A stretch of 64,000 bases of DNA, taken from contig CM037870.1 in the NCBI GenBank assembly GCA_021292105.1, positions 20,987,424 to 21,051,423 of the forward strand, read 5' to 3'. Shown here one piece after another: positions 508-61,862 of the stretch (its first letter is position 1; the number at the start of each line of letters is the position of its first letter). Under the pieces are notes generated by a model. The model was not told where the DNA came from. It did not search any database and saw only the letters and a list, made by a program, of their open reading frames with translations. This stretch comes from Anadara kagoshimensis. Lineage: Eukaryota > Mollusca > Bivalvia > Arcoida > Arcidae. The position numbers and the translations under genes were made by a program.

Positions 508-621
508 AACGATTTAAAGAACCAACACTTCTAGTTACCGACAAACTGGTGACATTTGGAAATCTGAGAAAAGCCATACACAAACGATCTGTTAGCGGCA
601 ATGCGCAGGATGTACAACATG
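508..621 (+). CDS. Gene A exon 1: pro-region exon with KR site (copy 1)
   Basis: The acceptor TTTTTACAG precedes the exon and the donor GGTAATT follows it; both ends are phase 1. The peptide reads E-R-F-K-E-P-T-L-L and later A-I-H-K-R-S-V-S-G-N, ending H-G across the junction. The KR pair is a candidate prohormone convertase site. It is the older-looking partner of the exon at 1758-1868; flanking intron sequence is also shared (CATACAAAGT about 80 bp downstream in both), so the duplicated unit was larger than the exon. Confidence 0.5.
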
Positions 622-3388
622 GTAATTATACCATTTTCAAAACATATTCTACGCCATTTTGTTATTGCGATCAGTAACCATACAAAGTTAGTGTGGAGTG
701 GAGTAGCCAGTCAAGAGAATTTCACCTACTTAATATATCCACAGTCAGTGTTGAGGCAGTAGAGGAACCCGGAGTGTCCGAAGTAAACCACCGACGCACG
801 GCAAGCGAACCAAGATCTGCCCTTGCACTATGTGACATGGAAGTTGAGAAGGAAAGGAACATAGAACTATGGGACGTCGCCTCCCTATGCGGCAAAAGTC
901 ACTATTTGTCACTTGAAATATAGCTGGTGACGTCTCGATATAAGTGAAATATTCTTGACTTTAAACCCTATTCATAAAATCAATCAATCAATCAATCATA
1001 TTGCTACAATTAGTTTTGTTGATATTTCAGAAGGTGGTCCTGGTGACATAGAGGAGCCTAATGTCAGCCTGATAGGTGATGTTTTGTGCCAGTTCTGTAT
1101 TAATACAAACAACGCAACATGCATAGCAAGATACTGCAATAGTTCACCGTCAATAGCGACAGGTAAATACATTTAAAATTTTTTTTTTAGAAAAATCTTC
1201 AAAATTAGTGTTGTTTCATCAATGAGTTAGGATTTTTTAAAGACAACTCATTAGACATATCGATTTAAAAAAAATATTTTCTGAGAGAAATATTTAAACT
1301 ACGACATGTCATATTGACAGATTCAGAGTTGCAGCTTAACAACATGTACTTGGCAATGAATGCAAAAGTAACAACTGGTAATTAAGTCCTCAAAATTAAT
1401 TAAAAGCTTTATAATGTCCCCAGTAATTGGTTTGATTATAAATTCAACAGATGGTATAATATTTGTCAGTTTGTTTCCCGATTGTTTTCTCCGGATATGT
1501 CAGTTTCATCCATCATCCTAGAACTGACATCCTGGATATAAAATAAAGAATCTTGACTGTCACTGCTCAGCAACAGTCTTAAAAATGTTCTGCAGCTTTT
1601 AACATCTTGTATAAATTGAAACTACATCCATGCACAAATGAAATAGTGAAAGATATCTAGCAATTTTGTTAATAACTGTGCTGTTTGCAGTTTTTGAAAT
1701 TTTTTATATATTCAGTAAATGATACGTTGATTATATATAGTTTTATTAATTTTACAGAACCAACTCAGGAACCAACATTACTAGGTGCCGACAAACTGGG
1801 GACATTTGGAGATTCCAGTGGAGCCATTTTTAAACGGTCTGTCAGTAACCGGGATCAGGAACTACATGGTATTTATACTTTTTAATCACATTTTTAATTG
1901 CGATAAGTACCCATACAAAGTCGGACTAGAATGGAGTAACGGTGTTTTAGTAGTGAGTGAGTGAGTAATGGTGTTTAACGTCTCAGTCAAGAATATTTCA
2001 CTTATATCGAGACGTCGCCAGCTATAGGCGAAGGTGCAGAAATTTTGCCTGTGCGTTGCGCTGATGACATTTTACAGCAGGGTTCTTTATCGAAAGAACC
2101 GTGACTTTCATTTCGTAATGCCGAGTGCTTGGCGAAAGAACAGTCACTACCCACTTTTAAGTCTTGGGTCAGACGCGGCCGGGGTTCGAACCCACGACCT
2201 CCCACTTACGGAGCGAGCACTCTACCAACTGAGCTACCGCAGTGGTAACGGTGTTTTAAACCTCAAGTCAAGATTATTTCAGTTATACTGGGATGGTGGA
2301 GGAAACCGGATTGCTCAGAGGAAACGGCTATGTCTTGCTCTGTTCGGACCATAAATTTATTAAATTGGTTTCAAGTGGTTTTTCTGGTCACTTTTCATGC
2401 ATGCTTGACGGATTTAAACTGACAATGGCTGTAAAAGAATCTTGACTGTTGTACGTTTACAATTTCCAGCCACCGATAGTTATAATAATGCACGTGCGGC
2501 TTTAAACAATAATTTACTCCCTCAGTTGATTGTTAAATATGAGATTACACCTTCACTCCTTTTTTATTTTAGATATTTCCAGTATGATCGAAGATATTGT
2601 TAGTACTTATGATGAACAGTAATAGTCCTACAAACAATAAAGCCAAAGAGAGTAAGTATCTATATAGTACCTTGAAATTATCATTTAGTTTTCATTATTG
2701 GCTTAGCTTTCTGGTGGAAACACCCGGCCTCACTTCCTTGGTGGATGTTCACTTTTATTTGAGTTTTCATACTTAGCGGTTGTAGATAGCTTAAAAGGAC
2801 GTGCTTACCCTTCTGGAGCACCGATCTCACTTCCCTGGTGGATGTTTACTTGTTTAAGTTAATTAAAGCCAGTTTTCAAAGTTTTCACTTTGTTTTTTGG
2901 ATTGTGCTTTAGACATGACTTAATACTTTATAAAAGTTTATGTCACCGTAGATATTAAGTTGTTACCCGTCTGTTGTGGCTTAAAAATAGGAGGTTGGAT
3001 TAGAGTAAGGAACATTATGCAAAGGTTTGGGCAAATTAAACGCTCAAACAATTTGTTCCCTCCAAATAGCAACCAACTACTTGTAGATTCCAGCCATATT
3101 TGGCTTACGAGACACTTTTAAAACATATAAATACCTATTTACACAGGGATGCACAACATAGTGAGCACACGTCTCGTTCAGAGTTTTAAAGAAAACCCTC
3201 CGAAAAACGCCTAGTTCAGAGATTTAAGTTGATAAAACATTTTGTTCATGAATAAAATATTAATGTGTTCTTTCTAAACTTATCTTTCTCTTTTCTGTTT
3301 AGTATTTCAGGGAATCGAAGATAAGACTGGAATGAAGAGATATTACATACAGGGTTCAGGATTTACTGGAATTCCCGAGTTTTTGTGA
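508..3388 (+). CDS. Gene A: cysteine-rich secreted peptide precursor, 5' partial
   Basis: I do not recognise this family. Five exons are read from splice sites: 508-621, 1031-1162, 1758-1868, then two alternative terminal exons, 2573-2622 and 3303-3388. Every internal junction is phase 1, so any internal exon can be skipped without a frameshift. The start codon and signal peptide exon must lie left of the window. Exons 1 and 3 are duplicates carrying a KR dibasic site; exon 2 carries four cysteines spaced C-x2-C-x7-C-x4-C. Gene B, 9.4 kb downstream on the same strand, has the same exon phases, the same cysteine spacing and a similar pro-exon end, which is the best argument that these exons are real. 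Family knowledge: dibasic sites before small Cys modules are typical of processed secreted peptides. The function (hormone, antimicrobial, other) is unknown. There is no transcript support. Confidence 0.5.
690..1000 (-). repeat. SINE2 body fragment followed by SINE1-type tail
   Basis: Bases 690-830 match the reverse of the SINE2 body (GAGGAACCCGGAGTG, CCACCGAC, GGCAAGCGAAC). Bases about 905-1000 match the 3' tail of the SINE1 family (AGCTGGTGACGTCTCGATAT, AAGTGAAATATTCTTGAC) and end in (CAAT)n. Two dispersed fragments sit side by side in the intron between gene A exons 1 and 2. Confidence 0.55.
1031..1162 (+). CDS. Gene A exon 2: four-cysteine peptide module
   Basis: A phase 1-1 exon bounded by GATATTTCAG and GGTAAAT. 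It encodes an acidic leader (E-G-G-P-G-D-I-E-E-P) followed by G-D-V-L-C-Q-F-C and, seven residues on, C-I-A-R-Y-C-N. The spacing C-x2-C-x7-C-x4-C is identical to that in gene B exon 3 (17016-17200), and the flanking residues G-D-x-L-C and R-[YF]-C-N match gene B exon 2 (16046-16174). Two disulphides are likely. The module is too short for a saposin and matches no family I can name. Confidence 0.5.
1758..1868 (+). CDS. Gene A exon 3: pro-region exon with KR site (copy 2)
   Basis: A duplicate of exon 1 with the same acceptor context (TTTTACAG), the same phase 1-1 ends and the shared core E-P-T-L-L-x-x-D-K-L-x-T-F-G, then A-I-F-K-R-S-V-S-N. The eleven residues after KR end D-Q-E-L-H-G, which resembles the D-P-D-V-L-I-G end of gene B exon 1. 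It could be a mutually exclusive alternative to exon 1 or an added pro-segment in a repeated precursor. Confidence 0.5.
1950..2244 (-). mobile_element. SINE1: full-length tRNA-derived SINE with target-site duplication
   Basis: On the minus strand the element starts with a clear tRNA-like head (GCGGTAGCTCAGTTGGTAGA, box B GGGTTCGAACCC). About 200 bp of body follows, and the element ends in a (TCAC)n-type tail at 1950-1965. It is flanked by a perfect 14 bp direct repeat GTAACGGTGTTTTA at 1936-1949 and 2245-2258. Target-primed insertion with such duplications is established for SINEs. The target is a SINE2 copy (about 1918-1949 plus 2259-2330), so this is a nested insertion inside a gene A intron. 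Other SINE1 copies are at 49388-49680 and 63799-64000. Confidence 0.85.
2573..2622 (+). CDS. Gene A alternative terminal exon a
   Basis: The acceptor CTTTTTTATTTTAG leads into a phase-1 exon reading D-I-S-S-M-I-E-D-I-V and stopping at TAA 2620-2622. An AATAAA lies only 14 bases after the stop (2636-2641). A donor-like GTAAGT follows near 2652, so the exon could instead be spliced on as a non-coding segment. Its start is similar in sequence to the exon at 3303-3388. Confidence 0.35.
2700..2920. repeat. Dispersed repeat family X fragment
   Basis: Contains the marks of a family present in more than ten copies here: CTTACCCTTCTGGAGCACC, CACTTCCCTGGTGGA, and AGTTTTCACTTTG before a GGATTGTG end. 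The class is unknown; no terminal repeats or ORF were identified. Confidence 0.5.
3303..3388 (+). CDS. Gene A alternative terminal exon b
   Basis: The acceptor CTTTTCTGTTTAG leads into a phase-1 exon: V-F-Q-G-I-E-D-K-T-G, later Y-I-Q-G-S-G-F-T-G-I, stopping at TGA 3386-3388. Its end resembles the C-terminus of gene B (L-K-G-N-S-L-P-I-M-G-I): both have G, a small polar residue, a hydrophobic residue, then G-I. This supports it as the true C-terminal exon of gene A. Confidence 0.4.
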
Positions 3389-3524
3389 AATATGACAAGT
3401 GAAATACAAATCACGCACAGACAACATTATATCGAAATCCATAAATATCATCAGAGATTGATGGGGCACCGTTTACGTAAAATTTATCAACTTCCGGTGT
3501 ACTGTATTATAAAAATAATTTATT

Positions 3525-3935
3525 TTATCTCTTAGATTATTTATTAATGTCGTGAATTAAATTATTTATTTTGTGAATTTATATATTCATTTACTTATTT
3601 TGTGAATTTATATATTTATTTATTTTGTGAATGTGATTATTTTTTTTCGTAAATTAGATTAGGATTTTGTGATTTGTGACATGTCTCTTAGATTATTTAT
3701 TAATGTCGTGAATTAAATTATTTATTTTGTGAATTTATATATTCTTTTATTTATTTTGTGAATTTATATATTTATTTATTTATTTTGTGAATTTATATAT
3801 TTATTTTGTGAATGTGATTATTTATTTCGTAAATTAGATTAGGATTTTGTGAATTGAGTTGATTTTATAATGCGAATGAAATTATTTATTTATTTTGTGA
3901 ATTAAAGTTATTTATTTTGTAACTTAATGCACTTT
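3525..3935. repeat. AT-rich degenerate tandem repeat
   Basis: Repeats of about 22-28 bp built on TTATTTTGTGAATTTATATA, with a larger internal duplication (the stretch starting TCTTAGATTATTTATTAATG occurs near 3530 and 3687). It lies just beyond the gene A terminal exon. No coding signal. Confidence 0.8.
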
Positions 3936-4336
3936 TAATAAAATTAATGTTTTTATATTTGTAAAGTTTTGTTCAGTTGTTGTTAGCTATGTTCATATAT
4001 TTTCAATGCCGATTTACCCATGAAACTTGTCAAATCCAAGGAGAACTTGACCAGTTATTTAAGTCATTGTGCCGGGATGATTCAAATAATATCACATGGT
4101 GGTTCAATTATGGCATAGTTGTTCTTAGTTTAAACAATATTTTAATCACAAAAAAGCAATACAATTGTACAATAACATACATATACATGAAGAGAAGGAT
4201 TCGAGAACAAGACCAATGTCTTATATTAACTCGTCTCCACAGTCTTTGCTTAAAATACATAAGATTATAAGATCAGGAAATCAAGTTGAAGAATTAAATA
4301 TTGCATTAAGTATTATATTGTTAAAGTAGATGATAT

Positions 4337-4373
<37 letters not shown>

Positions 4374-4374
4374 T
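4337..4374. repeat. (GA)n microsatellite
   Basis: A run of about 19 GA dinucleotides with one AAA interruption. Confidence 0.9.
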
Positions 4375-4636
4375 TACTGACAAAATCTTTTGGATAATAA
4401 TATATATTTTTGGACAACTTCGAAAGCATAGATATTTTCATCAACAGTAAGGTTTACAACATCACCATATAATAAAAAGTAATAATAGTTGTTCTTACAG
4501 TCTTTTACGCGGTTGTAAATCAATGATTGACTTTTTGGTGGCGTATTTTTATGTTTTTTTTTACACTGGTGTTTCTGTTGTTTGAATGCACATTTGTTGT
4601 AACAATCAAACACAAGAATACCGGTCCATGTTAAAC

Positions 4637-4830
4637 TATAAATCCCATAAACAAAGTAAAAACTTTGAAAACTGACAAGAACAATGGTAGTGAGGGCGTG
4701 TGCTCCGGAAGAATGAGTAACCCCCGTCTAGCTAGCTACACCCGGTTTTGTGTTAAATTAAATTTAGGATACAGAGACGTCATTCTTGTCAACAATATTG
4801 TGATGACGGCCTTAAAACTTTTTTTAAAAC
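4637..4830. repeat. Dispersed repeat family X fragment
   Basis: Contains AAAGTAAAAACTTTGAAAAC, GTGCTCCGGAAG and TAGCTAGCTACACCCG, the fullest set of family X marks. The same sequence order recurs at 10375-10590 and 23085-23345. Confidence 0.55.
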
Positions 4831-4906
4831 TTTTATAAGACCTTGATAATTCTGGTCTTTTATAATAACCGAATCACTAATTTATTTGTAGGTAGCTTGC
4901 TTTTGC

Positions 4907-4959
4907 CATGTGCTGATTATGAATGCATTATTTTAATTAAAATTCAAAATCAGCACATG
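4907..4959. repeat. Short perfect-hairpin element, copy 1
   Basis: Arms CATGTGCTGATTxTGAAT and its reverse complement flank a short AT loop, a stem of about 18 bp with one mismatch. The same hairpin recurs at 5321-5372 and 26686-26737. It is probably a minimal foldback MITE. Confidence 0.75.
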
Positions 4960-5320
4960 CCACTTTATTGCTTGTGCATGATAATGCCTTTCCTACGATG
5001 TTTGCGACTTGCATTTATTTTAATAAATAATTAATAATTAATATTAATTAATAATTAATAGCCTTGATAGCTTTTTACAACTAATATATTGTGTTGTGTT
5101 TTACGTAAAGAAAAATGCTATGTTTTGAAAGAATGGCTTTGCTTGAAGTGCTTTTCTCGAAAATTAAACACTCGAATATTACTCCAAATCATCGAGGTAA
5201 CATAGTGTTTATACCACCTATTCATACAATTTGGTGGGGTATGAGAGTCAAGACACTTAGCTAGATGGGTACCACAGTAGTTGCATTTAGTTTTTTATAT
5301 AATATACACGTCATTGTTGT

Positions 5321-5372
5321 CATGTGCTGATTTTGAATGCATTATTTTAATAAAATTCAAAATCAGCACATG
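5321..5372. repeat. Short perfect-hairpin element, copy 2
   Basis: A 52 bp near-perfect inverted repeat: CATGTGCTGATTTTGAAT, an AT-rich centre, then the exact reverse complement. It is only 360 bp from copy 1. Confidence 0.8.
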
Positions 5373-5536
5373 ACATTGTGAATCATTGTTAAAATTAAAA
5401 CAACACATCATTAAGTTATGGATATGTAATACGTGATAACTTTATATATTAGGATAGGTGTGAATCGCCAATGACAATTTCTGGAAAGTCTATGATATAA
5501 TGTGGCTATAATTGTGTGATAACTACAGTAGGCATA

Positions 5537-5735
5537 CAGACCAATCGAAAGTTTAACATTAAGCTAACGAATTAGTGCCGAAACGACAAATCACCTTGTT
5601 AAATAATATTGCGACGGCATTTTGACAGCTGCCATCTTTTAGGCCAATAGCTGCCAATACACATCCCAGCCACTCGATGGAAGCCGACTTTCGACTTATT
5701 TTCGTTAGCTCAGTGTTAAACTTTGGACAAGCCTG
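5537..5735. mobile_element. MITE M1 with inverted ends
   Basis: The ends share AAGTTTAACA and AGCTAACGAA in opposite orientation: left CAGACCAATCGAAAGTTTAA, right GTTAAACTTTGGACAAGCCTG read as its complement. It is about 200 bp with no ORF. A truncated copy lies at 10726-10845. Confidence 0.6.
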
Positions 5736-6036
5736 TAATGTAAGTGTTATACACAGGAAAGTAAGACAAACTTACTGTTGATTAATTAGAGGGAAAGCTA
5801 TTTATATATTTTTGTCCCCTTTTTAAGACTATAGATACATTTACCGAAGCACGTAGTCAACCGAGTGAAGTGGGATTTTTTTCTCACCAGTTTCAGTAAA
5901 TAAAGTCGATTGATAATTGTTTTTCATCTTTTTGCCAATTTATTGAAGTAAAAACATGACCATGACGGAAAACAAATTTATAAAAACGCATGACGTAGCC
6001 AAATTTGTGAAGTATTGGACCCAGGTTACTTTTTTC

Positions 6037-6400
6037 ACCTAAATCGAGGCAGTCAGTTTTGGGATGGTAGAGTAACCGGAAAAAACAACCGACCTTCGGC
6101 AAGCGAACTGACAAACTCTCTCACACTAGGATCCGATTCGGCCCCTAAGCAACGAGAGAAGTCGGATCCACAGGCGCTTGGGGTCAGGTATTTTTTTTTC
6201 AATTTATTATATATAGAGAAAATCAAGAAAATTTTAAAGTGCAATAAAATCAGTTTATTTCTGGTGCATTTAGTTCAGAACGTTGTCAGATATGATAAAA
6301 TAGCAAAATATCATTGCTTGGTCGATAAAATAATAAATTGAAAAAAAAAAAAAATACCTGACCCCAAGCGCCTGTGGTCGGATCCATAACTTGAAAATAC
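6037..6400 (-). repeat. SINE2 copy interrupted by a hAT-type MITE
   Basis: The SINE2 body in reverse orientation (GGCAAGCGAACTGACAAACT, CTCACACTAGGATCCG) is split at 6168/6377 by the element described at 6169-6376. Confidence 0.6.
6169..6376. mobile_element. hAT-type MITE with 8 bp target duplication
   Basis: The 208 bp element begins CACAGGCGCTTGGGGTCAGG and ends with the exact reverse complement; inverted ends continue into the adjoining A/T runs for about 40 bp. It is flanked by direct repeats GTCGGATC at 6161-6168 and 6377-6384. CA..TG ends with an 8 bp duplication are the known signature of the hAT superfamily. No transposase is encoded. Confidence 0.85.
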
Positions 6401-7156
6401 AAGTAGAAAATAAAAGAAAAGGAAATAAGAAATCTACACAATCTTAGCCAAGTAAGTCTTGTTAAAAAATACTGCCAATGAATGCAAAATTATTTTTACG
6501 TTACTAATATGTTACGTTAATATGCGTTACCTAGCTAAGGGGAACACATAAATATGGATAAACGATAGTTCGATTTTTAATATTTTAAGTTCAATATATG
6601 TGAGCTACAGCTGCCGCCTCACAATTGTCATTCAAGACATGCACTGAATGTTAATGTACTGTAAAATTCAATGTCACATGGTATTTTCTGATGTCAAAGT
6701 TGTGGAAATAGGTGATCAAGAACATAAAAGTATAACTTAATAAGATGTTAAATAATTCAGATTGAATTATGTGGGCGTACAGAAATAGAACTTTATTTTG
6801 TAAACAAAATCATAACTCAATTTTGGAGGCCATTGAAGGTATAAAACACAATTGTTATTTTATAAAATAAAACAATCCTTTGCAATAGCTTTTAACGCCT
6901 CTACCTTCATGGTGTATGGAAGTTTTGTGTCTAGGAGATTTTGCTGTCGCTGTCGGCGTGTCCTTAAAATGGGATAAGTTATGTTTTATACATGTTCAAA
7001 ATAATAGACTTGAGATTAGATACATTTAGTTTGAACACATAAAAGTCACAACACGCACGCGTTTTAAAAGTGAATAATCTGGCATACAAATTAGCCAACG
7101 GTTTATGGAGAAGGATTCGTACCATGCCGTCCTTTGTAGATTTTTGTTATAAGAGG
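6400..7156. other. Intergenic DNA without recognised features
   Basis: AT-rich sequence between a SINE and the minisatellite. No splice-bounded exon, no long reading frame and no repeat I can name. Confidence 0.5.
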
Positions 7157-8697
7157 GCCTCGGAAAGAACGCATACAGACCATAGTGCCACAGTCTCCTA
7201 GGTTCGAATGTCACACGGAAAGAACGCATACAGACCATAGTGCCACAGTCTCCTAGGTTCGAATGCCACTCGGAAAGAACACATACAGACCATAGTGCCA
7301 CAGTCTCCTAGGTTCGAATGCCACGCGGAAAGAACGCATACAGACCATAGTGCCACAGTCTCCTAGGTTCGAATGCCACACGAAAGAACGCATACAGACC
7401 ATAGTGCCACAGTCTCCTAGGTTCGAATGCCACACGAAAGAACGCATACAGACCATAGTGCGACCGTCGCCTAGGTTCGAATGCCACGCGGAAAGAACGC
7501 ATACAGACCATAGTGCCACAGTCTCCTAGGTTCGAATGCCACGCGGAAAGAACGCATACAGACCATAGTGCCACAGTCTCCTAGGTTCGAATGCCACACG
7601 AAAGAACGCATACAGACCATAGTGCCACAGTCTCCTAGGTTCGAATGCCACGCGGAAAGAACGCATACAGACCATAGTGCCACAGTCTCCTAGGTTCGAA
7701 TGCCACACGAAAGAACGCATACAGACCATAGTGCCACAGTCTCCTAGGTTCGAATGCCACACGAAAGAACGCATACAGACCATAGTGCGACCGTCGCCTA
7801 GGTTTAAATGCCACTCGGAAAGAACGCATACAGACCATAGTGCCACAGTCTCCTAGGTTCGAATGCCACACGAAAGAACGCATACAGACCATAGTGCCAC
7901 AGTCTCCTAGGTTCGAATGCCACACGAAAGAACGCATACAGACCATAGTGCCACAGTCTCCTAGGTTCGAATGCCACTCGGAAAGAACGCATACAGACCA
8001 TAGTGCCACAGTCTCCTAGGTTCGAATGCCACTCGGAAAGAACGCATACAGACCATAGTGCCACAGTCTCCTAGGTTCGAATGCCACTCGGAAAGAACGC
8101 ATACAGACCATAGTGCCACAGTCTCCTAGGTTCGAATGCCACTCGGAAAGAACGCATACAGACCATAGTGCCACAGTCTCCTAGGTTCGAATGCCACACG
8201 AAAGAACGCATACAGACCATAGTGCCACAGTCTCCTAGGTTCGAATGCCACACGAAAGAACGCATACAGACCATAGTGCCACAGTCTCCTAGGTTCGAAT
8301 GCCACTCGGAAAGAACGCATACAGACCATAGTGCCACAGTCTCCTAGGTTCGAATGCCACACGAAAGAACGCATACAGACCATAGTGCCACAGTCTCCTA
8401 GGTTCGAATGCCACTCGGAAAGAACGCATACAGACCATATTGCCACAGTCTCCTAGGTTCGAATGCCACACGAAAGAACGCATACAGACCATAGTGCCAC
8501 AGTCTCCTAGGTTCGAATGCCACACGAAAGAACGCATACAGACCATAGTGCCACAGTCTACTAGGTTCGAATGCCACACGAAAGAACGCATACAGACCAT
8601 AGTGCCACAGTCTCCTAGGTTCGAATGCCACTCGGAAAGAACGCATACAGACCATAGTATCACAGTCTCCTAGGTTCGAATGCCACTCGGAAAGAAC
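7157..8697. repeat. Minisatellite, about 28 copies of a 54/55 bp unit derived from a SINE head
   Basis: The unit runs GGAAAGAACGCATACAGACC, then ATAGTGCCACAGTCTCCTAG, then GTTCGAATGCCAC. Units are 55 bp (CACGCGG or CACTCGG variants) or 54 bp (CACACG variant), nearly identical otherwise; two carry GCGACCGTCGCC in place of GCCACAGTCTCC. CCTAGGTTCGAAT is box B of the SINE2 head, and the array runs straight into the SINE2 body at 8698. Long reading frames on both strands through the array come from repetition and are not genes. Confidence 0.95.
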
Positions 8698-8790
8698 GTT
8701 TATTTGTTCGTTTGAAGGTAGGTGGTTTCCGGACGCTCTGGTTTACTCCACATCAAAGAACTGATAGCTTGGATAAAAATGTGTAATTCA
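8698..8790 (+). repeat. SINE2 body adjoining the minisatellite
   Basis: Contains GAAGGTAGGTGGTTTCCGGA, CGCTCTGGTTTACTCC and AAGAACTGATAGC, in the order seen in intact SINE2 copies such as 46605-46795. It is the 3' remainder of the element whose head was amplified into the array. Confidence 0.75.
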
Positions 8791-9189
8791 AATTCTGAAC
8801 AAGACGTTCACGATTTTATTCTTGGTTAAGAAAATTCGGACTTTCTTGACACTACGGCACTCCCATTCCATTAATCCCGAGTGCAAAGTTGTGAAACCAC
8901 AGGTATTACCTATTTGCACTTGTTTATCAATAAAACAAGGCGGATATCGTAATTTTTTGTCAATGTGTCAACAAAAAACATTGTTGACTGATGAGATAAC
9001 GTTGCTGTCTGTCCAACAGTTTTCTTAGAAATACAGATTTAATAAAGAAATGAGAAATAAAAACACCACGATCCATCAACATGTTAAGTTAAACAATGAT
9101 AATAAAGTTAGATTTATCCATTAGATGGATATTATGTAAGTTTTATGAATAATACATGTAATCAATTTTAATTGCTCAGAAGCATGCAA

Positions 9190-9475
9190 TTGCTAAATCA
9201 AAAAAAGTTTTATGGTTGTCATAACAACAATGTTGATAAGTATGATGTCTCTGTATCCAAAATTATCCTGTAAATATTTGCCGTCCCATAGTTCCATGTT
9301 TCGTTCATTCTCTAGATCAATTTTGATTTTACGCTTGGTGGGTCTAGCTAGCTAGACAGGATATGCTTACCTTTCCGAAACACCAGACCCCATTTCCCTG
9401 TTGGAAGTTTAAGTGTTTAACTTAATTTGTCAGTTTTTTAAGTTTTAACTTTGCTTTTGTTTGGAATTGTAATTT
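9190..9475. repeat. Dispersed repeat family X fragment
   Basis: Opposite orientation to 4637-4830: CTAGCTAGCTAGACAGGATA, CACTTTC/CATTTCCCTG-type centre and the AAGTTTTAACTTTGCTTTTG end. The stretch from about 9480 to 10370 beyond it shows no feature I can name. Confidence 0.5.
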
Positions 9476-10374
9476 GAACATGTGTTTGATTATGATGTCA
9501 ACAAGTATTATTCCTTATTCTTTTCTGATACGTTTTACTGCTTTGGGTTCATACGTGTAATTTCAAACAACTACCCTCATGACTGGGTTTTTAAAATGCA
9601 AATTTATTTGCCTTTTGATATCTCGGTTATTTTCGTCTATATACTAGTCAATTTTTGTTGGTACCAGTTTAGATACCATTTACTTTGTGCTATATCTGCT
9701 TCTATCATCGAGATTGTTGGTACCGGATTCTTTAGTAAAAATGGATACCTTTGTCTTTATAATATTCAGGTTATTCGTATCTAAAGATTTGAAACCGGAG
9801 TCGTTGTGGAAGATGAATTTAAGCCTTAAACGAACATATCCTAAAATTTCAATCATCGCTGTTTGCATTGAACATGTTTTGTTTTAATAGCTTATTGCTG
9901 TTGGAATTGTTTATCAATCATAATTCACTTGAATGTTAATGATTACTAATTTCTGAAATATTGTTCAAAAAATATAAACAAAAATATAAACACTTACCGT
10001 AAAACTAGGAGCCAACTGCACCCGCTTGGGGTTTAACCTCGAAACATATATTCGAAAATATCGATATAAATCGGGTTCTGAAAATGATTTTTCTGTATGT
10101 TCACCTGGCTTTTTTGACTGTCATGATTGGAACATGTGTCGGTATCTTTGTTATTTATTTATACTTCTCGAAAAGTTTCTGATTTGTATGCAGTTTTTCT
10201 GTGTGGAAACCAATTATTCTTCCTCACAATCCAACTTATCTACCAAAATTATAGCTGATTTTGAAATTTTCTTATTTCAAGTTGACAGAGTACAGGACCT
10301 TTAATATAAATGAAGATAGTAACCATTTCGACATTTAACTGCATATGCTTAGTATGTTCCAATCACAATCTAAA

Positions 10375-10590
10375 AAGCAAAGTAAACACTGTAAAGTCTG
10401 GCAAACTTAGTTCTACACCCGAACCTCCATCACGGAAGTGAGACCGGGTGGTCCGGAAGGTTAAACACTCCCTGTCTAGCTAGCTAGCTACACCCGCTGC
10501 ATACGCAATCAAAACCAGTAACGAAAGGAACGTGGAACCATGTAATGCCGAACGCACCCAGAACAACCCTGGACACAGATAGCATAAAAG
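10375..10590. repeat. Dispersed repeat family X fragment
   Basis: AAAGTAAACACTGTAAAGTC, CACGGAAGTGAGACCGGGTG and CTAGCTAGCTAGCTACACCC mark the family. The GCTAGC run is palindromic. Confidence 0.5.
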
Positions 10591-10725
10591 TAAGCTATTG
10601 ACAATAGCCATGTAGGACAATGTGGCATGTACAATCTGATGTGCTAGATCTAGAAGTGTAAATGTGATGTCAATATATGCCATTATATATGTTGTAAAGT
10701 TCATGCTAATCTCTTTCTAATATAC

Positions 10726-10845
10726 GGTACAGGCCTGTAGGGAATTTAACACTAAGCTAACAAATTGGCAGGTCATCTCTCCAAAATGTTTTTCGGCGGC
10801 TGCCATCTGGACAGTTTGTAGGCCCTAAGCTATCTATAGGCATCT
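10726..10845. mobile_element. MITE M1, truncated copy
   Basis: Shares the end TTTAACACTAAGCTAAC and the internal GGCTGCCATCTGGACAG with the copy at 5537-5735, but its other end is missing, cut off near the foldback element at 10850. Confidence 0.5.
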
Positions 10846-10849
10846 TGAC

Positions 10850-11317
10850 TACTGTAGGAACCACTGTGTTTGTGACAGTGAAATACTCTTCATATCCATA
10901 GAAAATCAAATAAATTTGAATAAAGATTAATATTTTTCACTGACTTTTACCTAGTCGTAACAGGAAATCTGTATGCGCATTCGCAATTAGCCCCGAATAT
11001 ATCTGCACATGGTAAAACGTTGACGCTATGGGGATTTGACATGTTAAAAAACAAGGCAAATGGCGGATTCTGTTGCGCATATGACGTAAAACGTCACCAA
11101 GGACATCACTTCCGCTGTAAACTTCGCCATTTTCGCCATGTTAAATCCCCATAACGCCAACATGTCATACTTTATGACAATCGCGGATGCGCATACAGAT
11201 TTCCTGTCACGACTAGGTGCACCTAAGTGAAAAATATCGATCTTTATTTAATTTTATTTGATTTTCTATGGATATAAAGAGTATTTCACTGTCACAAACA
11301 CAGTGGTTACTACAGTA
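10850..11317. mobile_element. Foldback MITE F1 with long inverted arms
   Basis: The arms are about 200 bp. Left: ACTGTAGGAACCACTGTGTT, then GTGACAGTGAAATACTCTT and CATAGAAAATCAAATAAATT. The right arm is their reverse complement, ending AACACAGTGGTTACTACAGT. The centre holds GACGCTATGGGGATTTGAC facing GTTAAATCCCCATAACGCC. A second copy is at 36248-36682 and a degraded fragment at 43055-43180. No ORF. Confidence 0.85.
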
Positions 11318-12338
11318 CTTGGTTACTAAACTTCGACTCCTTTTCGTCAGTAGAGTTTTAAAACATTCGACAGATCTGTACTGCTAGATCAAAATATGCA
11401 CCCAGAACACAGCTTTTTGTGATAGGCTTTCATTTTCCTATTGTCGAGAAAAACATATACTCACTTGTCGTGGATAAACAAAGCTTTTGCAATAGAACAG
11501 TTTTCTTACAACATGACGCAAACGAACATATAAATAGGTTGCATAAATTTGTATCGTTTTTATAATGGAGTGCATGCATAGCGTTATTCTCTACACCCGT
11601 TTATTTGAAGGAAAAAAGCACAAAGAAAAAAATAAGACGTTGTTTACCAAAAGGAAATGTCAGCATTTCTGATGTTTCAGCATTATAAATAACATAAAAA
11701 TTCTAAAATGTCATTTAAGATCTTTACAATGTTTGTTGCAAGCCCTAACCAAAAGGTTATGTAGCGACGGCAATGCAAAATGTCATCTTTTGTTTGATGA
11801 AAATTGAAAAGCATGTGACAGGTAAGCAAAGTGTTTCCTAGTAACTGTAAAGAAATCAAAAAAGAAAAATATTTTTATTTACGATTTTGTCAGTCATCAA
11901 GATTTTTTTAAAAATTAAAATGTGGTTAGGATAAAAGGTCATGTAATATGAAACATAAACGTAATTAAACAAGCATCAAGTTGTCATCTATTATGAATAA
12001 CGTGACGACAAAATTCCCAAAATACCTATGAAAAAACGTCAAATGTCTAAAAATAGACTTTATTCAAACACATACATTAACGGACACGTGTTAAAGAATT
12101 CCCCTTGTCGGAAACGATGTGTATGCATATCAAATGTATTTTGTCGTTGATTGTGTTCACTAACCTTTGTACTTTATAACTTAACATCATCAAACAACTA
12201 CCTGGAGTTTTCAGAATTTTCTGGAGTTTTTCCGCGATTAACTTCATTAGAATGGATTTTGAAATTAATCAAATGAGACATATAACATTTACTTTTATGA
12301 CGCAATGAAGTAAGGCGTTGAAAGCTGAGTACAGGTCA
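11318..12338. other. Intergenic DNA without recognised features
   Basis: AT-rich sequence upstream of gene B. I see no splice-bounded exon and no repeat I can name. Confidence 0.4.
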
Positions 12339-12593
12339 ACAACATTGACTTGTCCGCTTGACCTTTCATTGGGACTATTCATATCGGACTCTGGAGGGTC
12401 CACCGAGTACATGGGTAGTGTTAGGATCTCAGTGAATACATATACAGTGTACAAGCTTAGTGATATGTAAACGAGTTAATACTTGTGTTCCCTATAGGGA
12501 AATGTACTCGTCTAAAATAGATATTGAAATTAAAGGCTAAACGTACGGATCAATGCTTTTGCAATAAAAGGTCAAGCATACAGGTCAATGTTG
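12339..12593. mobile_element. MITE M2 upstream of gene B
   Basis: Inverted ends: left CAACATTGACTTGTCCGCTT then GACCTTTCATTG, right the reverse complement of a close match (ATAAAAGGTCAAGCATACAG, GTCAATGTTG). A second copy with the same ends is at 37453-37641. It ends about 140 bp before the gene B TATA box, so it may have altered the upstream region. Confidence 0.7.
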
Positions 12594-12733
12594 TTTGCCT
12601 ATACGTTCATCAATGGCTATTTATCTAACAAGCGGACAACCCATTTAGAACCTCTTCAAAAACGCAAAGGTAATTAGATATAAATATCGACTTAGGTGAA
12701 AAAAAGTGTTTTCTTCAATGTGACAACTGTCTG

Positions 12734-12741
12734 TATAAATA
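12734..12741 (+). promoter_or_regulatory. TATA box of gene B
   Basis: TATAAATA lies 62 bases before the chosen ATG at 12803. A start site about 30 bases downstream (near 12765) would give a short 5' leader of some 40 bases. Inferred from sequence only. Confidence 0.5.
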
Positions 12742-12802
12742 TAAAGCGAATGCAGTGACAGATTACAAGTTTATTTGTCATATGACTAGAACTATTTGCA
12801 AC

Positions 12803-12965
12803 ATGAGAGACTTAGTTAAGATTTTACTGGCGTATTGCTGTGCTCTGGTGGTACAATGTAGACTTCCAGAACAAATTGCTTCACATCGATTAGACCGTCA
12901 TGGAACATCCCGCCAATTCCTGTCCCCGCGAAAAATACAAAGGATGGACCCGGATGTTTTAATAG
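12803..12965 (+). CDS. Gene B exon 1: signal peptide and pro-region
   Basis: Encodes the signal peptide and a 36-residue basic pro-segment. The donor is ATAG|GTAAGT, a full consensus, at phase 1. After the R-K pair, eleven residues end D-P-D-V-L-I-G across the junction, in the same position as D-Q-E-L-H-G in gene A exon 3. Confidence 0.7.
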
Positions 12966-15900
12966 GTAAGTTCAGTGCTTTAATAGTATATTTTAACATT
13001 TTATAATAAACCTAATTTGGTTGCCTTATATGGTATTACGAAATTGAAAAAAATTGTTGAATTCTTGAAATGTATTCTTCAAAGAAGAGTTTTTCAAAGT
13101 TCAAACTGGCAACTGCTGTGTATTGTACAATGTAATTTGCACTTGTGTTCAAATGTTACTTCATTCAAATCGCTAATATCAAAAGAAGCTATTTAAACCA
13201 ATACATCATGTTTACAGCAAATACTTTTAAGGGAGAATGGAGGATAGAGTTGCTTAAAAGTAGTTTCATGTGGGAAAGATAACTGACAAGTTAAATCGTG
13301 TTTTACATCCGAATGCTGAATAAGTAACTAACTTCAGATTTGACTTACTTTTTATGCTGAATAAGTAACTAACTTCAGATTTGACTTACTTTTTCAACAT
13401 TTAATGTTGAGTGTTGAAAAGTAACTAACTTCATAACCGGGCCTATGTGATATGTTTTTTTTTGTGCTCTTGTTAATTTTTAGTTATTGTACATTCCTAA
13501 GTGCTCCTTTTTGGAAATTTTGGGAATTCAACAATTTCAAGACCTTTTCAGTCATGAACATATAAGATATTAGTCTCTGGGTAAAATACTCTTGACTCTA
13601 TGTAGACTTCATTAGGAGCTGTATAAAATTTGCATGTAGGCGTTGTTGATTTGTTGTTCGTCGAGGCAAGACTTATTTTAATGTTTAAATGTGCGCATTT
13701 ATAAACCACTGGTTGTAAAATTTAGTAAGTGGGATGGATAGCACGTAAACCACACCACTAGACATTTACCCCAGTGTCCATACAAAGAAGGTAGTTTTAT
13801 TGTTTTGGATCCAATATGCGTTTGTCTTTTCTTGTTTACCTGTCTTGTTTGACTGTTGATGTTATTAATTTGAAATATAGCCAAAATACACAGATGTTTT
13901 CCAGTTACAGTTTGATTCTTCTATTACATTAATCAGTTTCTATTGAATGGCAGTTTTTTAGTTGCAACTACAAGTATTTCATTTCATTTTTTACGAATTC
14001 CGTATAATTAATTTAGATGCAAAAGTGAATTTATTATGTATTAAAAAGAAGCTTCTTCAAGATAAATAAATTTCCTAAATTGGTACCCATTGAATGTATC
14101 AATATAAATCATTTGTTGTGTTAAGAGACATGCCATTTGTAAACGCATGTCCTTGCCATGTTAAACTTAAGGTGTACTTCGTCATTTCCATAGCTAAATT
14201 TGGTAAAACCTATTTTAGTCATTTGTGTATCTTTACAACATCTTGAAATCAATTTTGGTTTCATAATTTTGGCCCAAGTCCTACTGATGAGAAATTGTAT
14301 CCCGAAACGGCCGTCTTGTGCTATGAAATTAAAACTGGTATAATATGTAATTTGTTGACTTCCGTATGGAACGCCACATTTATGCATCTTTAAGATGTGT
14401 TACCATGGTTTGTTCCTCGTTTCAGTTTGTTTTCGTGTTGCTATGGTTGCTTTAGATGTTTGGTTTTACCTTTTGTTGTGTCATGTTCTCGGTTGTATAG
14501 TTTCTTGTTATGTCATCAGTGTTCTTCGTTGCCTTAGCTTTCATACCAGGTTGAGATGATGAAGCGGTTCTCAACCTATTGATATTTTTGCTGATTTTTT
14601 ATGTAGGGTCCTCCTAATTATTATATTAAATTTTAATTCGGCTTGTAATGTTCTAGCTTGACATTCTGAAGTAAATGTTTAGTACTACGAGATATTGTCA
14701 GGGCTTTTGAGAAAAAAAAACCAATAACAACACAAAAATAACAAATTAAACAAACAGCCACGTCAAAATTACAATTAACGTCGCTGAAAAATAGTATAGA
14801 CCCAAAGTATTTACAACTTAAACCATATAATCGTTGGAATATAAGTTATTGTCTAAGTCTGGCTTGATGCTTAATTCTATTCAATCACATAAAAAAGGGA
14901 AAGTCATGATCTTAATGATCTAACTATGTACTTGCAGTATCGATGACGTCATGTTTGGTTAGGGCCATAATAATTGATCCATACTAAAATAGGGTCGTTC
15001 AGGAAACCAGAAACATACCTTCTTTGTGTGGCCTTACTGTAATTGAATGACGTCATCTTCTTGACATTTCCGTTCATTTTATTAGAGATTTGGACAGGGG
15101 TTTATTTGCCATATCGGTCAACAACACTTTGAGTAATGAGAAACGAAACAGAAAACTTGGCAAGGATGAACAATTGGATTTATTTATAGCAAAGAATATT
15201 TAATATACTTAAATATGTGAAAACATGTTTGAATAACTTATTTACGTCATTTAATGACGTCATTGACCATAAATATTTCAGTAATGATACTATTTAATTC
15301 CTGAATGATTTGACAATACTACGTGTATAGTATATTAAAACATTTTATCATCAACTTAATTCCTGAATGATTTGACAATACTACGTGTATAGTATATTAA
15401 AACATTTTATCATCAACTTAATTTCTGAATGATTTGACAATACTACATGTATAGTACATAGAAACGTTGAATTATCAACTTAAATTATAACGTTTTAATC
15501 TTAAAAAAACTTGTCAATCTAAAGAAGTAAATGAATAATTGTAATTCCACTGAATATCTACAAAATATTTGGTTCTTGCTTTCTCTGAAATAAAGTAAAC
15601 AAGCTGTAGGGTTGAATCCAATTCGGGCAGATCCTAGTGCGAGAAAGTTTGTCATTTGAGTTGCTGAAGGTCGGTGTTTTTCTCCGTTCACTCCGATTTC
15701 CTCCACAATCCCTGAACTGAACACAACGATATAAGTGAAATATTCTTGACTTAGGTATAAAATAGCACTACTCCACTTCACTTTGAACAACTGGTTGTGT
15801 ATTCCCCCCTTAGATCTAAGTTGATACTTTGTATAAACTCAAAATACAGTATGTTGAACGATTATACTAAGTACGGTCCGACCTGCCTTAAAGGCCACAT

Positions 15901-17200
15901 CTATATAAGGACCACCTGCTTATAAAGGTCAGTAGAATTGTATCCCAAGTGTTCTATATTCTTCATATTATTTGAAGTTCCCTTGGGTGGCCTTAATAGA
16001 CAGGTATGACTGTATATTCATGACTTTTAACATCTTAATCCACAGGAAAGAACCCGGACACAAAAACCGCTGTGTTGTTTCTTGGTGATATGCTTTGTGC
16101 GTACTATACACGGATAGGCCATGTAGCTGGTATGATTCGATTCTGTAACAACGGTATCAATGGTGGAAACGCAGGTTTGTATTTAGAAATACACTATATA
16201 ACAATGTTTGACTCATTCCTGTACCCCAGAATTTTTTTTGTACTTACAGACACTGTAAAACGAGAACTTTTGGCGGTTTTTTTTTTGTTATGGATGAATT
16301 CGCGAGCGTAAAAACGCGAAAATAACACTTTCACGAATATTTTAGTACCGTAATTATATGTAGTGAGATGATATTGAACATCATGATCATCTGACGACGC
16401 TAAAATTAATGTGCGCGAATATCTTGAAATCACGATCCTCGTGAAAATTAACCGACGCGAAAAATTCCCGATTTACAGTAACTTAATTTTGTTCATGGTG
16501 ATTTCTTCATCAATGGTAGTATTACACTATCAAACACTTTGATGATCAAAATCTTTTATTAAAGTCATTTTAAGGTTTGTTCAGACTATTAAAAACTTAG
16601 ATAAAATCACGGTTGGCAAACGTTTGAAGAATATTGATCGAACTGTAGAACTGATGTAGTAAAACGTCGATCAAAGTTTAATCAATCATAATTCAAAATA
16701 TACTTGGTCAAGACTTCAAGTGGCACGGGGAAATTTCTATGAGCTCTATTTCACATGTTAACATTCTGTCCTATAATTCTAGATGAATTCCATCTAAGCC
16801 AATTTTATATGCGTTTTTCTCCTACGAATGATGTGGCTACATTAAAGGCGAGAAAATATGTACATATGTTGTAATATGTTGGAATATATTGGGAAATTAC
16901 ACAAGACACAAGTTGTCATATGTCAAATGTTTGAAAGGTTATAGTTTAAGAAAATTACGAAATAAACTATTTTAACATGATGTGACATGATGTTTATGTA
17001 TTTTGTTTTATACAGGATCCAAAACCAAGCTTTCAGAAAAGGATCTTCCACAAGTGAAATGTGATTTTTGTAAGGTATTTGGAGACAGTGGTTGTAGAAA
17101 AAGACATTGTGTTCAGCCTAAAGTTGCTGACATACAAAGAATCCACAAACAATTCGCTTTAAAGGGTAACAGCTTACCAATAATGGGCATTGCCGTCTAA
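12803..17200 (+). CDS. Gene B: secreted cysteine-rich peptide precursor, 158 aa
   Basis: Three exons, 12803-12965, 16046-16174 and 17016-17200, join in frame (477 bases including the stop) with phase-1 junctions at both introns. The start is the ATG at 12803, with A at -3; an in-frame ATG at 12782 has a poorer context. Residues 1-19 (M-R-D-L-V-K-I-L-L-A-Y to V-V-Q-C) form a signal peptide, so the product enters the secretory pathway. A basic pro-region follows (S-P-R-K-I-Q-R). Exon 2 holds a module with two cysteines (G-D-M-L-C to I-R-F-C-N) and exon 3 a module with four (K-C-D-F-C to R-K-R-H-C), then the tail L-K-G-N-S-L-P-I-M-G-I-A-V and TAA. It is paralogous to gene A. I do not recognise the family; a neuropeptide-like, antimicrobial or other secreted role cannot be told apart from sequence alone. 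Confidence 0.7.
13313..13394. repeat. 41 bp tandem duplication
   Basis: Two identical copies of a unit starting ATGCTGAATAAGTAACTAAC, in gene B intron 1. A third partial echo (GTTGAAAAGTAACTAACTTC) follows. Confidence 0.85.
14130..14390 (+). repeat. Retroelement end with hammerhead ribozyme motif (copy 1)
   Basis: About 250 bp shared with 55130-55320 (AGCTAAATTTGGTAAAA, CAACATCTTG, TTTCATAA, then the ribozyme and ATTAAAACTGGTATAATAT). Hammerhead motifs beside such sequence are known from Penelope-like retroelements and retrozymes in bivalves; the assignment here is inference. Confidence 0.5.
14277..14325 (+). ncRNA. Hammerhead ribozyme motif, copy 1
   Basis: Core CTGATGAG at 14284-14291, a stem II segment, CGAAAC at 14303-14308 and GTC at 14313-14315. 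Stem III is the palindrome ACGGCCGT with no real loop, a form known to act as a dimer. Stem I pairs poorly (AGTCCTA against TTGTGCT), so this copy may be weak or inactive. Confidence 0.6.
14944..15262. promoter_or_regulatory. Cluster of CRE-type TGACGTCA sites
   Basis: Three perfect TGACGTCA palindromes at 14944-14951, 15048-15055 and 15255-15262, plus TTACGTCA at 15242-15249, within 320 bp of gene B intron 1. The octamer is the known CREB/ATF binding site. Enhancer function is inference. Confidence 0.35.
15297..15483. repeat. 62 bp tandem repeat, three copies
   Basis: A unit beginning CTGAATGATTTGACAATACT at 15301, 15363 and 15425; the third copy is diverged by several substitutions. Confidence 0.9.
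15605..15785 (+). repeat. SINE2 copy
   Basis: Forward SINE2: GGTTGAATCC, GGCAGATCCTAGTGCGAGAA, GAAGGTCGGTG, CGATATAAGTGAAATATTCT and a CTCCACTTCACTTT end. The 5' part of the head is missing. Confidence 0.65.
15871..16014. mobile_element. MITE M3
   Basis: Inverted ends: GGTCCGACCTGCCTTAAAGG and, reversed, TACAGTCATACCTGTCTATT then AAGGCCACCC. The family recurs at 60428-60610 and, more diverged, at 39083-39258 and 39975-40150. It ends only about 30 bp before gene B exon 2. Confidence 0.65.
16046..16174 (+). CDS. Gene B exon 2: two-cysteine variant of the module
   Basis: Bounded by the acceptor TTAATCCACAG and donor GCAG|GTTTGT, phase 1-1. Encodes K-N-P-D-T-K-T-A-V-L-F, G-D-M-L-C-A-Y-Y, then G-M-I-R-F-C-N. 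Against gene A exon 2 the outer cysteines and G-D-x-L-C / R-[YF]-C-N are kept, but the inner two cysteines are Tyr and Gly. That leaves a single possible disulphide. Confidence 0.65.
16251..16480. mobile_element. MITE M4 with ACTGTAAA ends
   Basis: Left end CACTGTAAAACGAGAA, right end TTCCCGATTTACAGTA, with CG-rich GCGAAAA motifs inside. No ORF. Lies in gene B intron 2. Confidence 0.5.
17016..17200 (+). CDS. Gene B exon 3: four-cysteine module and C-terminus
   Basis: Acceptor TTTTATACAG, phase 1. Encodes D-L-P-Q-V-K-C-D-F-C, seven residues, then C-R-K-R-H-C-V-Q-P-K, the C-x2-C-x7-C-x4-C pattern, followed by a basic stretch and the hydrophobic end P-I-M-G-I-A-V. The R-K-R inside the module may be a surface patch rather than a cleavage site. 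Confidence 0.65.
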
Positions 17201-18290: not shown

Positions 18291-18647
18291 ATTTTCACAT
18301 AATGTCTTAAACATCCTAATGATTTTGATGGCCATTCTAATATTTTTAGTTGTATTTCTTACTTTTATACTTTTATTTCAAGAAGCTTCATTATATTTCT
18401 ATGACATATTTATTAAAACAATTTTTCAATGTCCAGCTTTTTTTTGTCGTATGATTATTCGACAAATGTACAATTTAATAATAAAATATATTGTTTTTTA
18501 TTTTTTTTGTGTGTAAATATGTATTTAGTGTTTATAAACACCTTCCTGGTGGAAGTTCACGTGTCTAACTTGTCAGTTTCAGAGTTTTTACTTTGCTTCT
18601 GGATTGTGATTCTACGAAAGCCTATTAAGCTCATGAATAAAAAAAAT

Positions 18648-19337
18648 TAAAAGGCGTAATAACGCAAAATAAAGGCTTTATAATGCAAAAAAGGCGATAT
18701 AACGCCTTGAGAAAGGCGTAAAAACGCGAATTGAAAGGCGTTATGACGCGAAATAAAGGCGTTATAACGCGAATTGAAAGGCGTTATAACGCGAAATACA
18801 AACGTAATAACGCGAATTGAAAGGCGTAATAACGCGAATTGAAAGGCATTATAACACGAAATAAAGGCGTAATAACGCGAATTAAAAGGCGTAATAACGC
18901 GAAGTGAAAGGCGTTATAATGCCTTTTTGTCTATATATAGAGCAGTCACTTACCTGGAGAATGTTTCTAACAACCCTCACCACAAGCAGATTGGTTTAAA
19001 ATTGAATAGCTTATGGCAACTGATTAAACCTTGATCTATTCATCCTTGTTAAAAGTTAACAATAACAATTGACAATAATTGACAATTGGACAGGAACTTT
19101 TTAATAAATACCCATGTGTGTATATTGCCAAATTTCAGATTACTTTAAAGATTTCCATCCCCATATATAAAATGATACTCTTTATGAAAAAACTTTAACA
19201 TTGTAAAGAAACCTTTTTTTTTTTTTACTGAAATAGTATGTTCATTTCAGCTCAGGATCGGATGATGTGCAGTTTTTGAATTTTCATAGAATAAAAACAT
19301 ATAAAACAGCTTATTACATTACATATAGTTGTGCAGG

Positions 19338-19387
<50 letters not shown>

Positions 19388-19752
19388 ATGTGGTTGTAAA
19401 AAGGGGTTGGGGGGGGGTGGGTGGGTTAGAGATTAAACCCCAGGACCTCCACATCATTATGCATCTTAATTTCGCGTTAATACACCTTTCAAATCGCGTT
19501 ATTACGCCTTTCTTAAGGCGTTATAACGCCTTTTAATTCGCGTTATTACACCTTTTAATTAGCGTTATAATGCCTTTATTTCGCGTTATAACGCCTTTCA
19601 ATTCGCGTTATAACGCCTTTCAATTTGCGTTATGACGCCTTTATTTCGAGTTATAACGCCTTGCAATTCGCGTTATTACGCCTTTCTTAAGGCGTTATAA
19701 CGCCTTTTAATTCGCGTTATTACACCTTTTAAATAGCGTTATAACGCTTATT
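18648..19752. mobile_element. Foldback-like element with tandem-repeat arms
   Basis: The left arm (18648-18930) is about 13 tandem units of some 22 bp built on AAAGGCGTTATAACGCGAAT. The right arm (19468-19752) is the same repeat in reverse (CGCGTTATAACGCCTTT). The unit core GCGTTATAACGC is itself a 12 bp palindrome. The 535 bp between the arms carries a CA run and a G-rich tract. Inverted arms made of short direct repeats are the known design of Drosophila FB elements; applying that name here is inference. Confidence 0.65.
19339..19385. repeat. (CA)n microsatellite
   Basis: About 23 uninterrupted CA dinucleotides, followed 20 bp later by a G-rich tract at 19406-19426. Confidence 0.95.
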
Positions 19753-20120
19753 TCGTATGATTCGGATATGGATTAGTATGTTTGTTTTTGATTATAGAGA
19801 TGGTTGATCGTAAACATTGAAGTGATCCTCGAAAAGTGTTTGGACAATATTTTGTCAAAACCAAGCTCTGTCCAAAGTCCGCGATTTTTATCATCAATGG
19901 CCACAGCATGTATTTAGATGCACATGGGTTTTCTTATTTATAATTGTGTTGTGGTGTGTTCTTGTACTCGCATTGGCTGTTGATCTAAGTATAATAGACA
20001 CAATTTTATTGACTGTTAAATCGGTGTCCGATTGTTGTGGTTCTTGGAAGAAATATAATTTAGTGGGGTTGTAACTTAAGGTTTGTGGTTACCGTTTAAG
20101 ATACTAGTAATTATGTTATA

Positions 20121-42671: not shown

Positions 42672-61862
<19,191 letters not shown>

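Follow-up and report, generated by a model that had tools for sequence, protein, structure and literature searches.

We describe here a small, fast-evolving family of peptides in the arcid bivalve Anadara kagoshimensis (assembly GCA_021292105.1; 1.115 Gb in 36 contigs), probably secreted and built from a short cysteine-bearing module that is predicted to fold as a helical hairpin and that is encoded each time by one symmetric phase-1 exon. The window on which the analysis was centered is a stretch of 64,000 nucleotides of contig CM037870.1 (C14:20987424-21051423), and the family is represented there by two neighboring genes, which we call A and B. A second tandem pair, C5a and C5b, was recovered on contig C5. 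We give this interpretation a probability of about 0.77, a value that covers the existence of a secreted module-peptide family and not the role of its products. The first-pass annotation of the window had already proposed a tandem family of secreted cysteine-module peptides, and this proposal is upheld by the three modules of gene A, the one-and-a-half modules of gene B, the phase-1 exons, their duplication together with introns and the promoter arrangement common to both genes.

A cysteine module shared by two neighboring genes

The module spans around 25 residues. Two hydrophobic residues and a GD pair, which is varied in module 2 of gene A and in exon 3 of gene B, are followed by C-x-F-C-(x6 or x7)-C-(x3 or x4)-C, with an arginine placed two residues before the last cysteine. 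In the six-frame translation of the window, the spacing C-x2-C-x7-C-x4-C was matched exactly twice, at 1087 and at 17060, both on the plus strand. These are the gene A exon and the gene B exon 3 for which an identical cysteine spacing had been claimed, and the number of matches is above chance, as resampling the window under a first-order Markov model yielded 0.065 matches on average and at least two in 1 resample out of 200. The motif GD-x-[LIVM]-C was found in the same translation only at 1075 and 16084, and R-[YF]-C-N at 1129, at 16138 and at five other places. Both motifs are therefore present where the first-pass annotation had reported them, common to gene A and to exon 2 of gene B.

The similarity of the two genes extends beyond the cysteines. 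With the cysteine columns excluded, the scores of modules 1, 2 and 3 against gene B exon 2 were reached in 2, 9 and 2 of 20,000 shuffles, respectively. The scores against gene B exon 3 were weaker, being reached in 403, 93 and 300 of 20,000 shuffles. Genes A and B are also preceded by a similar arrangement of TATAAATA and TGACAGAT (Table 1). This arrangement occurs at 167 places in the genome, many of them repeats, compared with 62 for a reversed control. Because it was spotted post hoc, it supports the common descent of the two genes but does not prove it.

The 5' end of gene A lies outside the window, around 2 kb upstream, and its signal-like exon and modules 1 and 2 are found in the 9.9 kb that immediately precede the window (L004; negative coordinates extend the window numbering upstream). 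With predicted splicing across the exons of the window and of L004, gene A contains three modules in total. From the signal-like exon as far as module 3, gene A can be read through five consecutive exons without any stop or frameshift. When it is read to 1385, the spliced gene encodes 241 residues. The exon that starts at 1321 could also be internal, as it contains a phase-1 GTAATT donor at 1378, and if this donor is used after 1377, the reading would continue across the second pro-exon and end in the exon at 2573 or in that at 3303, with 292 or 304 residues. Of all the acceptors in the set, that at 1321 is the weakest, with 9 pyrimidines out of 18 positions. By eye, the 5' leader of gene A (L004 7745-7905) holds several imperfect copies of a unit of ~50 bases (CTTCAGCGTATACATTGCAGCACAAGATT...), and a long tandem array of ~45-base units is visible upstream of the gene (L004 ~4690-5860).

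The spliced reading of gene B is 165 residues long, with one intact and one reduced module. Its hydrophobic N-terminus, identified by reading, and a TATA box that starts 48 bases 5' of the ATG agree with the signal peptide and the TATA box listed previously for this gene. The phase-1 nature of the internal junctions was likewise confirmed, all the junctions built for genes A and B being in phase 1 and of the GT-AG type.

Duplication history and coding evidence

Two pairs of DNA segments within gene A match each other, introns included: -500..-44 is 72% identical to 880..1306, and 480-705 is 71% identical to 1727-1938. The matches run through exons and introns alike, and we therefore conclude that the module exon and the pro-exon were each tandemly duplicated. 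K-R-S-V-S is retained in both copies of the gene A pro-exon despite an agreement of only 19 of 31 residues. A likeness between the pro-exons of the two genes, with a shared dibasic site and a similar end, had also been put forward. It holds for the two gene A copies, with their common K-R-S-V-S, but by eye the pro parts of A and B are not convincingly similar.

No recognizable module follows the last copy of the pro-exon. A short interspersed element (SINE)-like sequence with a tRNA-Thr-like head (1954-2243, minus strand) sits there, where a fourth gene A module might be expected, and an inverted 68% match to this element is found at -605..-388. The earlier suggestion that modules are freely gained and lost is in line with the degenerate module of gene B, the repeats of gene A and the module-less copy of the pro-exon, but it has no support from comparisons between species.

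The differences between modules 1 and 3 fall on codon positions 1, 2 and 3 in the proportions 7/4/17, and those between C5a and C5b in the proportions 7/6/13. Such a distribution favors genuine coding sequence. For modules 2 and 3, the nonsynonymous divergence (dN) is 0.18 and the synonymous divergence (dS) 0.39.

A second gene pair on contig C5

The degenerate pattern GDxLCxxC was found at 193 places in the genome, compared with 121 for the reversed control, and among the 28 of the 193 places that were examined the C5 pair alone fitted the module. C5a and C5b lie in tandem, 4.7 kb apart. Each has two exons, of which the first is signal-like and is joined to the second in phase 1, and they encode 86 and 92 residues with the modules GDILCAFCNRSKPSCKRTC and GDILCGFCPFSETVCKRMC, in which GDILC-x-F-C...C-K-R-x-C can be recognized. 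The more specific pattern GD-[IVM]-x-C-x-F-C occurs at six places, namely modules 1 and 3 of gene A, C5a, C5b and two others (reversed control, 2). The two others, on C2 and C17, do not fit the module. A local tblastn comparison of C5a with module 1 gave an E value of 1.2e-4, bait letters included. In the four comparisons of the C5 pair with gene B, only exon 3 against C5b stands out (30 of 2000 shuffles, uncorrected for ten comparisons). From their sequences, C5a and C5b are likely relatives of the gene A/B family.

Other searches were extended to the whole genome and beyond. C-I-[AT]-R-[YF]-C was found at 12 places, compared with 10 for the control, and three of these are the gene A modules. 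Eight of the other nine read with the motif and the ninth (L057) has Ser in place of Arg; none has the GD or the module spacing. An open stretch on C19 (L060, C19:26725670-26725970, minus strand; CNVCCHYYCIARYC) contains CIARYC as in gene A and a CxxC, with a shorter loop and without GD. No further module was detected by pattern in eight 10-kb stretches (80 kb) surrounding the C5 pair or in the 19.8 kb upstream of L004 (L005 and L006). Whole-genome protein searches in which gene A, gene B and C5 served as queries returned these loci and three matches at E 0.617, 1.84 and 3.89. When the module 3 peptide was compared with GTDB genome contigs, 128 stretches matched a pattern and none was confirmed.

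Proposed fold and processing

The AlphaFold2 model of module 3 contains two helices, at residues 12-26 and 29-35, and the mean predicted local distance difference test (pLDDT) score over residues 21-30 is 92. By residue count, Cys 20 and Cys 23 would be on the first helix, and Cys 31 and Cys 36 on or just after the second. The module could thus form a short helical hairpin closed by nested C1-C4 and C2-C3 disulfides. The nested arrangement is suggested by exon 2 of gene B, in which C2 and C3 were lost jointly while C1 and C4 remain. If this is true, the loss of the inner disulfide in gene B would amount to a test, made by nature, of how far the hairpin can be reduced.

In gene A, modules 2 and 3 each follow a dibasic site (KK/VSVG and KR/SVSG, the slash marking the expected cut), and another KK follows module 2. 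The gene A polyprotein might be cleaved at these sites, EGKAVKK/VSVGPGG...SPSIKK/...AIHKR/SVSG..., to release three module peptides. N-A-T precedes the third cysteine in all three gene A modules, in the sequon form N-A-T-C, and the precursor may be N-glycosylated at this position. Gene B exon 3 and the C5 pair lack the N-A-T sequon, and C5a has N-R-S. The C5 genes would be single-module versions of the precursor, with cleavage sites that are less clear there and in gene B. Processing at dibasic sites, in line with the first-pass annotation, is plausible in the case of gene A, whereas for gene B it is less clear.

Taken further, these features could define an unnamed molluscan peptide class, in which a single mobile phase-1 exon encodes a minimal two-disulfide hairpin that is used as a basic single-module peptide (C5 pair), in a one-and-a-half-module form (gene B) and in a glycosylated three-peptide polyprotein (gene A). 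This broader proposal is tentative and we place it somewhat short of even odds.

Counter-evidence, alternative explanations and possible role

Several results weigh against the family as proposed above. Amphipathicity is not exceptional in the cationic tails of C5a, C5b and gene B exon 3, with 3833, 3321 and 1219 of 5000 shuffles, respectively, scoring as high. Outside the search motif, the similarity between the C5 pair and gene A was not significant in any of the six comparisons (716-1506 of 2000 shuffles). The gene A pro-exon pair shows little constraint, with a dN of 0.33 and a dS of 0.48. Upstream of modules 2 and 3, the adjoining intron is identical at 121 of 144 positions and is as conserved as the exon core (81%), so that this pair of modules taken alone does not demonstrate selection; the downstream intron is less conserved (93/135). 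Finally, the AlphaFold2 model was built on a 3-sequence alignment and has a mean pLDDT of 71.9 and a predicted template modeling (pTM) score of 0.43.

As to role, gene A products acting as extracellular signaling peptides come closest to even odds, and this reading is favored because of the layout of the gene A precursor. Host defense is a possible but less probable role, favored because of the charge of gene B exon 3 and of the C5 pair. Other secretory roles, reproductive or shell-matrix for example, are rather unlikely. In a host-defense scenario, the modules would be of the cationic antimicrobial type, gene B exon 3 and the C5 pair being the active forms and gene A a neutral glycosylated offshoot. 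The net charge of module and tail is indeed +6 for gene B exon 3, +8 for C5a and +9 for C5b, compared with 0 to +3 for the gene A modules (that of gene B exon 2 is +1). The genes are also small, tandem and divergent, and mussel CRP-I, as presented in the accessible portion of PMC10138031, is a comparable multi-copy secreted family. However, the cationic tails are no more amphipathic than their shuffles, and among the seven stretches tested clear amphipathicity was seen in one, the acidic alternative end of gene A (19/5000), and was moderate in the C5b core (298/5000). The N-glycosylation sequons of the gene A modules and the failure to match any antimicrobial family in Pfam also argue against a defense role.

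One could also view gene A as a decaying pseudogene, with the extra pro-exon and the stop-bearing last exons as debris and gene B as the only live copy. Three last exons compete in gene A (Table 1), a module-less pro-exon copy lies beside the SINE-like insert and the pro-exon pair is little constrained, all of which would fit decay. We nevertheless find this unlikely, as five successive gene A exons are free of stops and frameshifts, the differences between modules 1 and 3 are biased to third positions, and the promoter arrangement of gene A is common to gene B.

Convergence of short cysteine-bearing secreted peptides, with A and B, or the C14 and C5 loci, being unrelated, is improbable to the same degree. 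Such a scenario would account for the merely moderate agreement of gene B exon 3 with gene A outside the cysteines and for the lack of a convincing match between C5 and gene A outside the bait motif. It is difficult to reconcile with the strong match of gene B exon 2 to gene A, with the promoter arrangement common to A and B, or with the finding that four of the six GD-[IVM]-x-C-x-F-C places in the 1.1 Gb genome are the modules described here. Lastly, modules that bind zinc through CxxC...CxxxC rather than forming disulfide hairpins are very unlikely: intracellular plant zinc fingers do use both spacings (CX2CX7CX4C in SHI/SRS, in the accessible portion of PMC9846857, and CX2CX6CX3C in LBD proteins), so that spacing alone is no proof of disulfides, but by reading all four genes have a signal-like first exon, the gene A sequons adjoin C3, and gene B exon 2 lost one cysteine pair and kept the other.

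Comparison with known families

No credible match was obtained in Pfam, NCBIfam or PDB sequences, in agreement with the first-pass annotation, which could not assign a named family. The secreted helical-hairpin peptides proposed here are of an ordinary kind, that of secreted cysteine-bearing peptides, and belong to an apparently unnamed family. If it is real, the family also illustrates how readily genes of this sort are missed by profile libraries, as the module is one small exon and, in this case, the start of gene A is outside the window.

Alpha-hairpinins have the spacing CxxxC...CxxxC and nested C1-C4/C2-C3 bonds. The helix-turn-helix and nested bonds suggested by the model and by the paired cysteine loss would be alike, but the spacings found here are CxxC...CxxxxC (gene A and gene B exon 3) and CxxC...CxxxC (C5 pair), and no Pfam or PDB sequence of this type was matched. 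The saposin B domain contains six cysteines over ~80 residues. The GD-x-L-C-x-x-C start of the module resembles the first helix of these domains, whereas its four cysteines lie within 17 residues, and no SapB match was found in Pfam up to an E value of 10, with HMMER filters dropping most matches above ~0.1. CHH/ITP and eclosion hormone share a six-cysteine pattern; the modules have four cysteines each and gave no Pfam match to either.

In the accessible portion of PMC10138031, the mussel CRP-I array is given as C(X3-6)C(X1-7)CC(X3-4)C(X3-5)C, a six-cysteine knottin, and the arrays are located in the fourth and last exon whatever their number. As described there, CRP-I peptides resemble the family reported here in being secreted mollusc precursors with one or several cysteine arrays, a dibasic propeptide site and an unsettled function. 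Unlike that array, the present module has four cysteines without an internal CC, and each gene A module occupies its own phase-1 exon rather than the last one. The KR/RR site of the CRP-I precursors has counterparts in gene A, HKR/SVSG (508-621) and FKR/SVSN (1758-1868), but is not clear in gene B.

The molluscan neuropeptide and hormone precursors presented in the accessible portions of PMC8398477, PMC5996578, PMC4200219 and PMC6425005 combine a signal peptide, dibasic sites and repeated related peptides, some of them with cysteines, a layout that the predicted gene A precursor would share. The gene A module peptides differ in that, by reading, they end without a C-terminal amidation signal. 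A family with the module motif was not found in the accessible text of these four surveys, including section 2.7 of PMC8398477, their figures and supplements being outside the search. More generally, the module strings were absent from the literature text searched, figures and supplements, the usual place of precursor sequences, again being outside the search. The spacing strings did occur in accessible text and, among the matches listed, all were from the plant SHI/SRS or LBD families. The full SHI/SRS finger, CX2CX7CX4CX2C2X6C as it appears there, is not present in the modules, which have its first four cysteines alone.

If real, the peptides of genes A and B and of the C5 pair add an unnamed family to the molluscan secreted-peptide repertoire. 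The family would also offer an unusually clear record, one exon after another, of how modules were gained, duplicated and lost within 20 kb, and the module is short enough for direct synthesis and assay.

Table 1. Predicted exons and promoter elements of genes A and B (window numbering unless L004 is indicated).
Feature	Position	Strand	Remarks
Gene A upstream element, TATAAATA-N15-TGACAGAT	L004:7668-7698		
Gene A signal-like exon	-2012..-1877	+	hydrophobic N-terminus, by reading; in L004
Gene A module 1 exon, GDVICGFCKKTKNATCITRFC	-1011..-898	+	phase 1; in L004
Gene A module 2 exon, ADALCQFCIATNNATCIARYC	-352..-188	+	phase 1; in L004
Gene A pro/linker exon, RFKEPTLLVTDKLVTFGNLRKAIH-KR-SVSGNAQDVQH	508..621	+	both ends in phase 1
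Gene A module 3 exon, GDVLCQFCINTNNATCIARYC	1031..1162	+	C-x2-C-x7-C-x4-C; N-A-T sequon; hairpin model; duplicate, at the DNA level, of module 2
Gene A exon after module 3, terminal option, DSELQLNNMYLAMNAKVTTGN and stop	1321..1385	+	stop at 1383-1385
Gene A second pro/linker exon copy, EPTQEPTLLGADKLGTFGDSSGAIF-KR-SVSNRDQELH	1758..1868	+	phase 1
Gene A alternative last coding exon, DISSMIEDIVSTYDEQ and stop	2573..2622	+	
Gene A further possible last exon, FQGIEDKTGMKRYYIQGSGFTGIPEFL and stop	3303..3388	+	acceptor pyrimidines 17/18
Gene B core promoter, TATAAATA-N14-TGACAGAT	12734..12763	+	
Gene B exon 1, signal-like N-terminus and pro part	12782..12965	+	
Gene B exon 2, degenerate module, GDMLCAYYTRIGHVAGMIRFC	16046..16174	+	Cys 1 and 4 kept, Cys 2 and 3 lost
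Gene B exon 3, module KCDFCKVFGDSGCRKRHC, C-terminal tail and stop	17016..17200	+	

Neighboring features

Genes A and B are separated by a minisatellite of 54-55-bp units (window ~7150-8700; families D1 and D2). Tandem arrays with spacings of 21-22 bp and 43 bp are found at 18636-18925 and 19465-19769 (families D3, D6 and D7). Further along the window, a long open frame on the minus strand (28680-30047) matches in Pfam the first part of a guanylate cyclase catalytic domain (E 1.1e-5). Another open frame on the minus strand (61431-61943) contains a PI3K p85-binding domain (Pfam E 9.4e-29) and is probably the start of a gene for a PI3-kinase catalytic subunit. Elsewhere in the genome, and in agreement with a molluscan origin, an exon of an APGWamide/RPGWamide-type neuropeptide precursor, RRPGWGKRAPGWGKR, was observed on contig C1 (L069 377-607, minus strand); precursors of this type are a molluscan kind.

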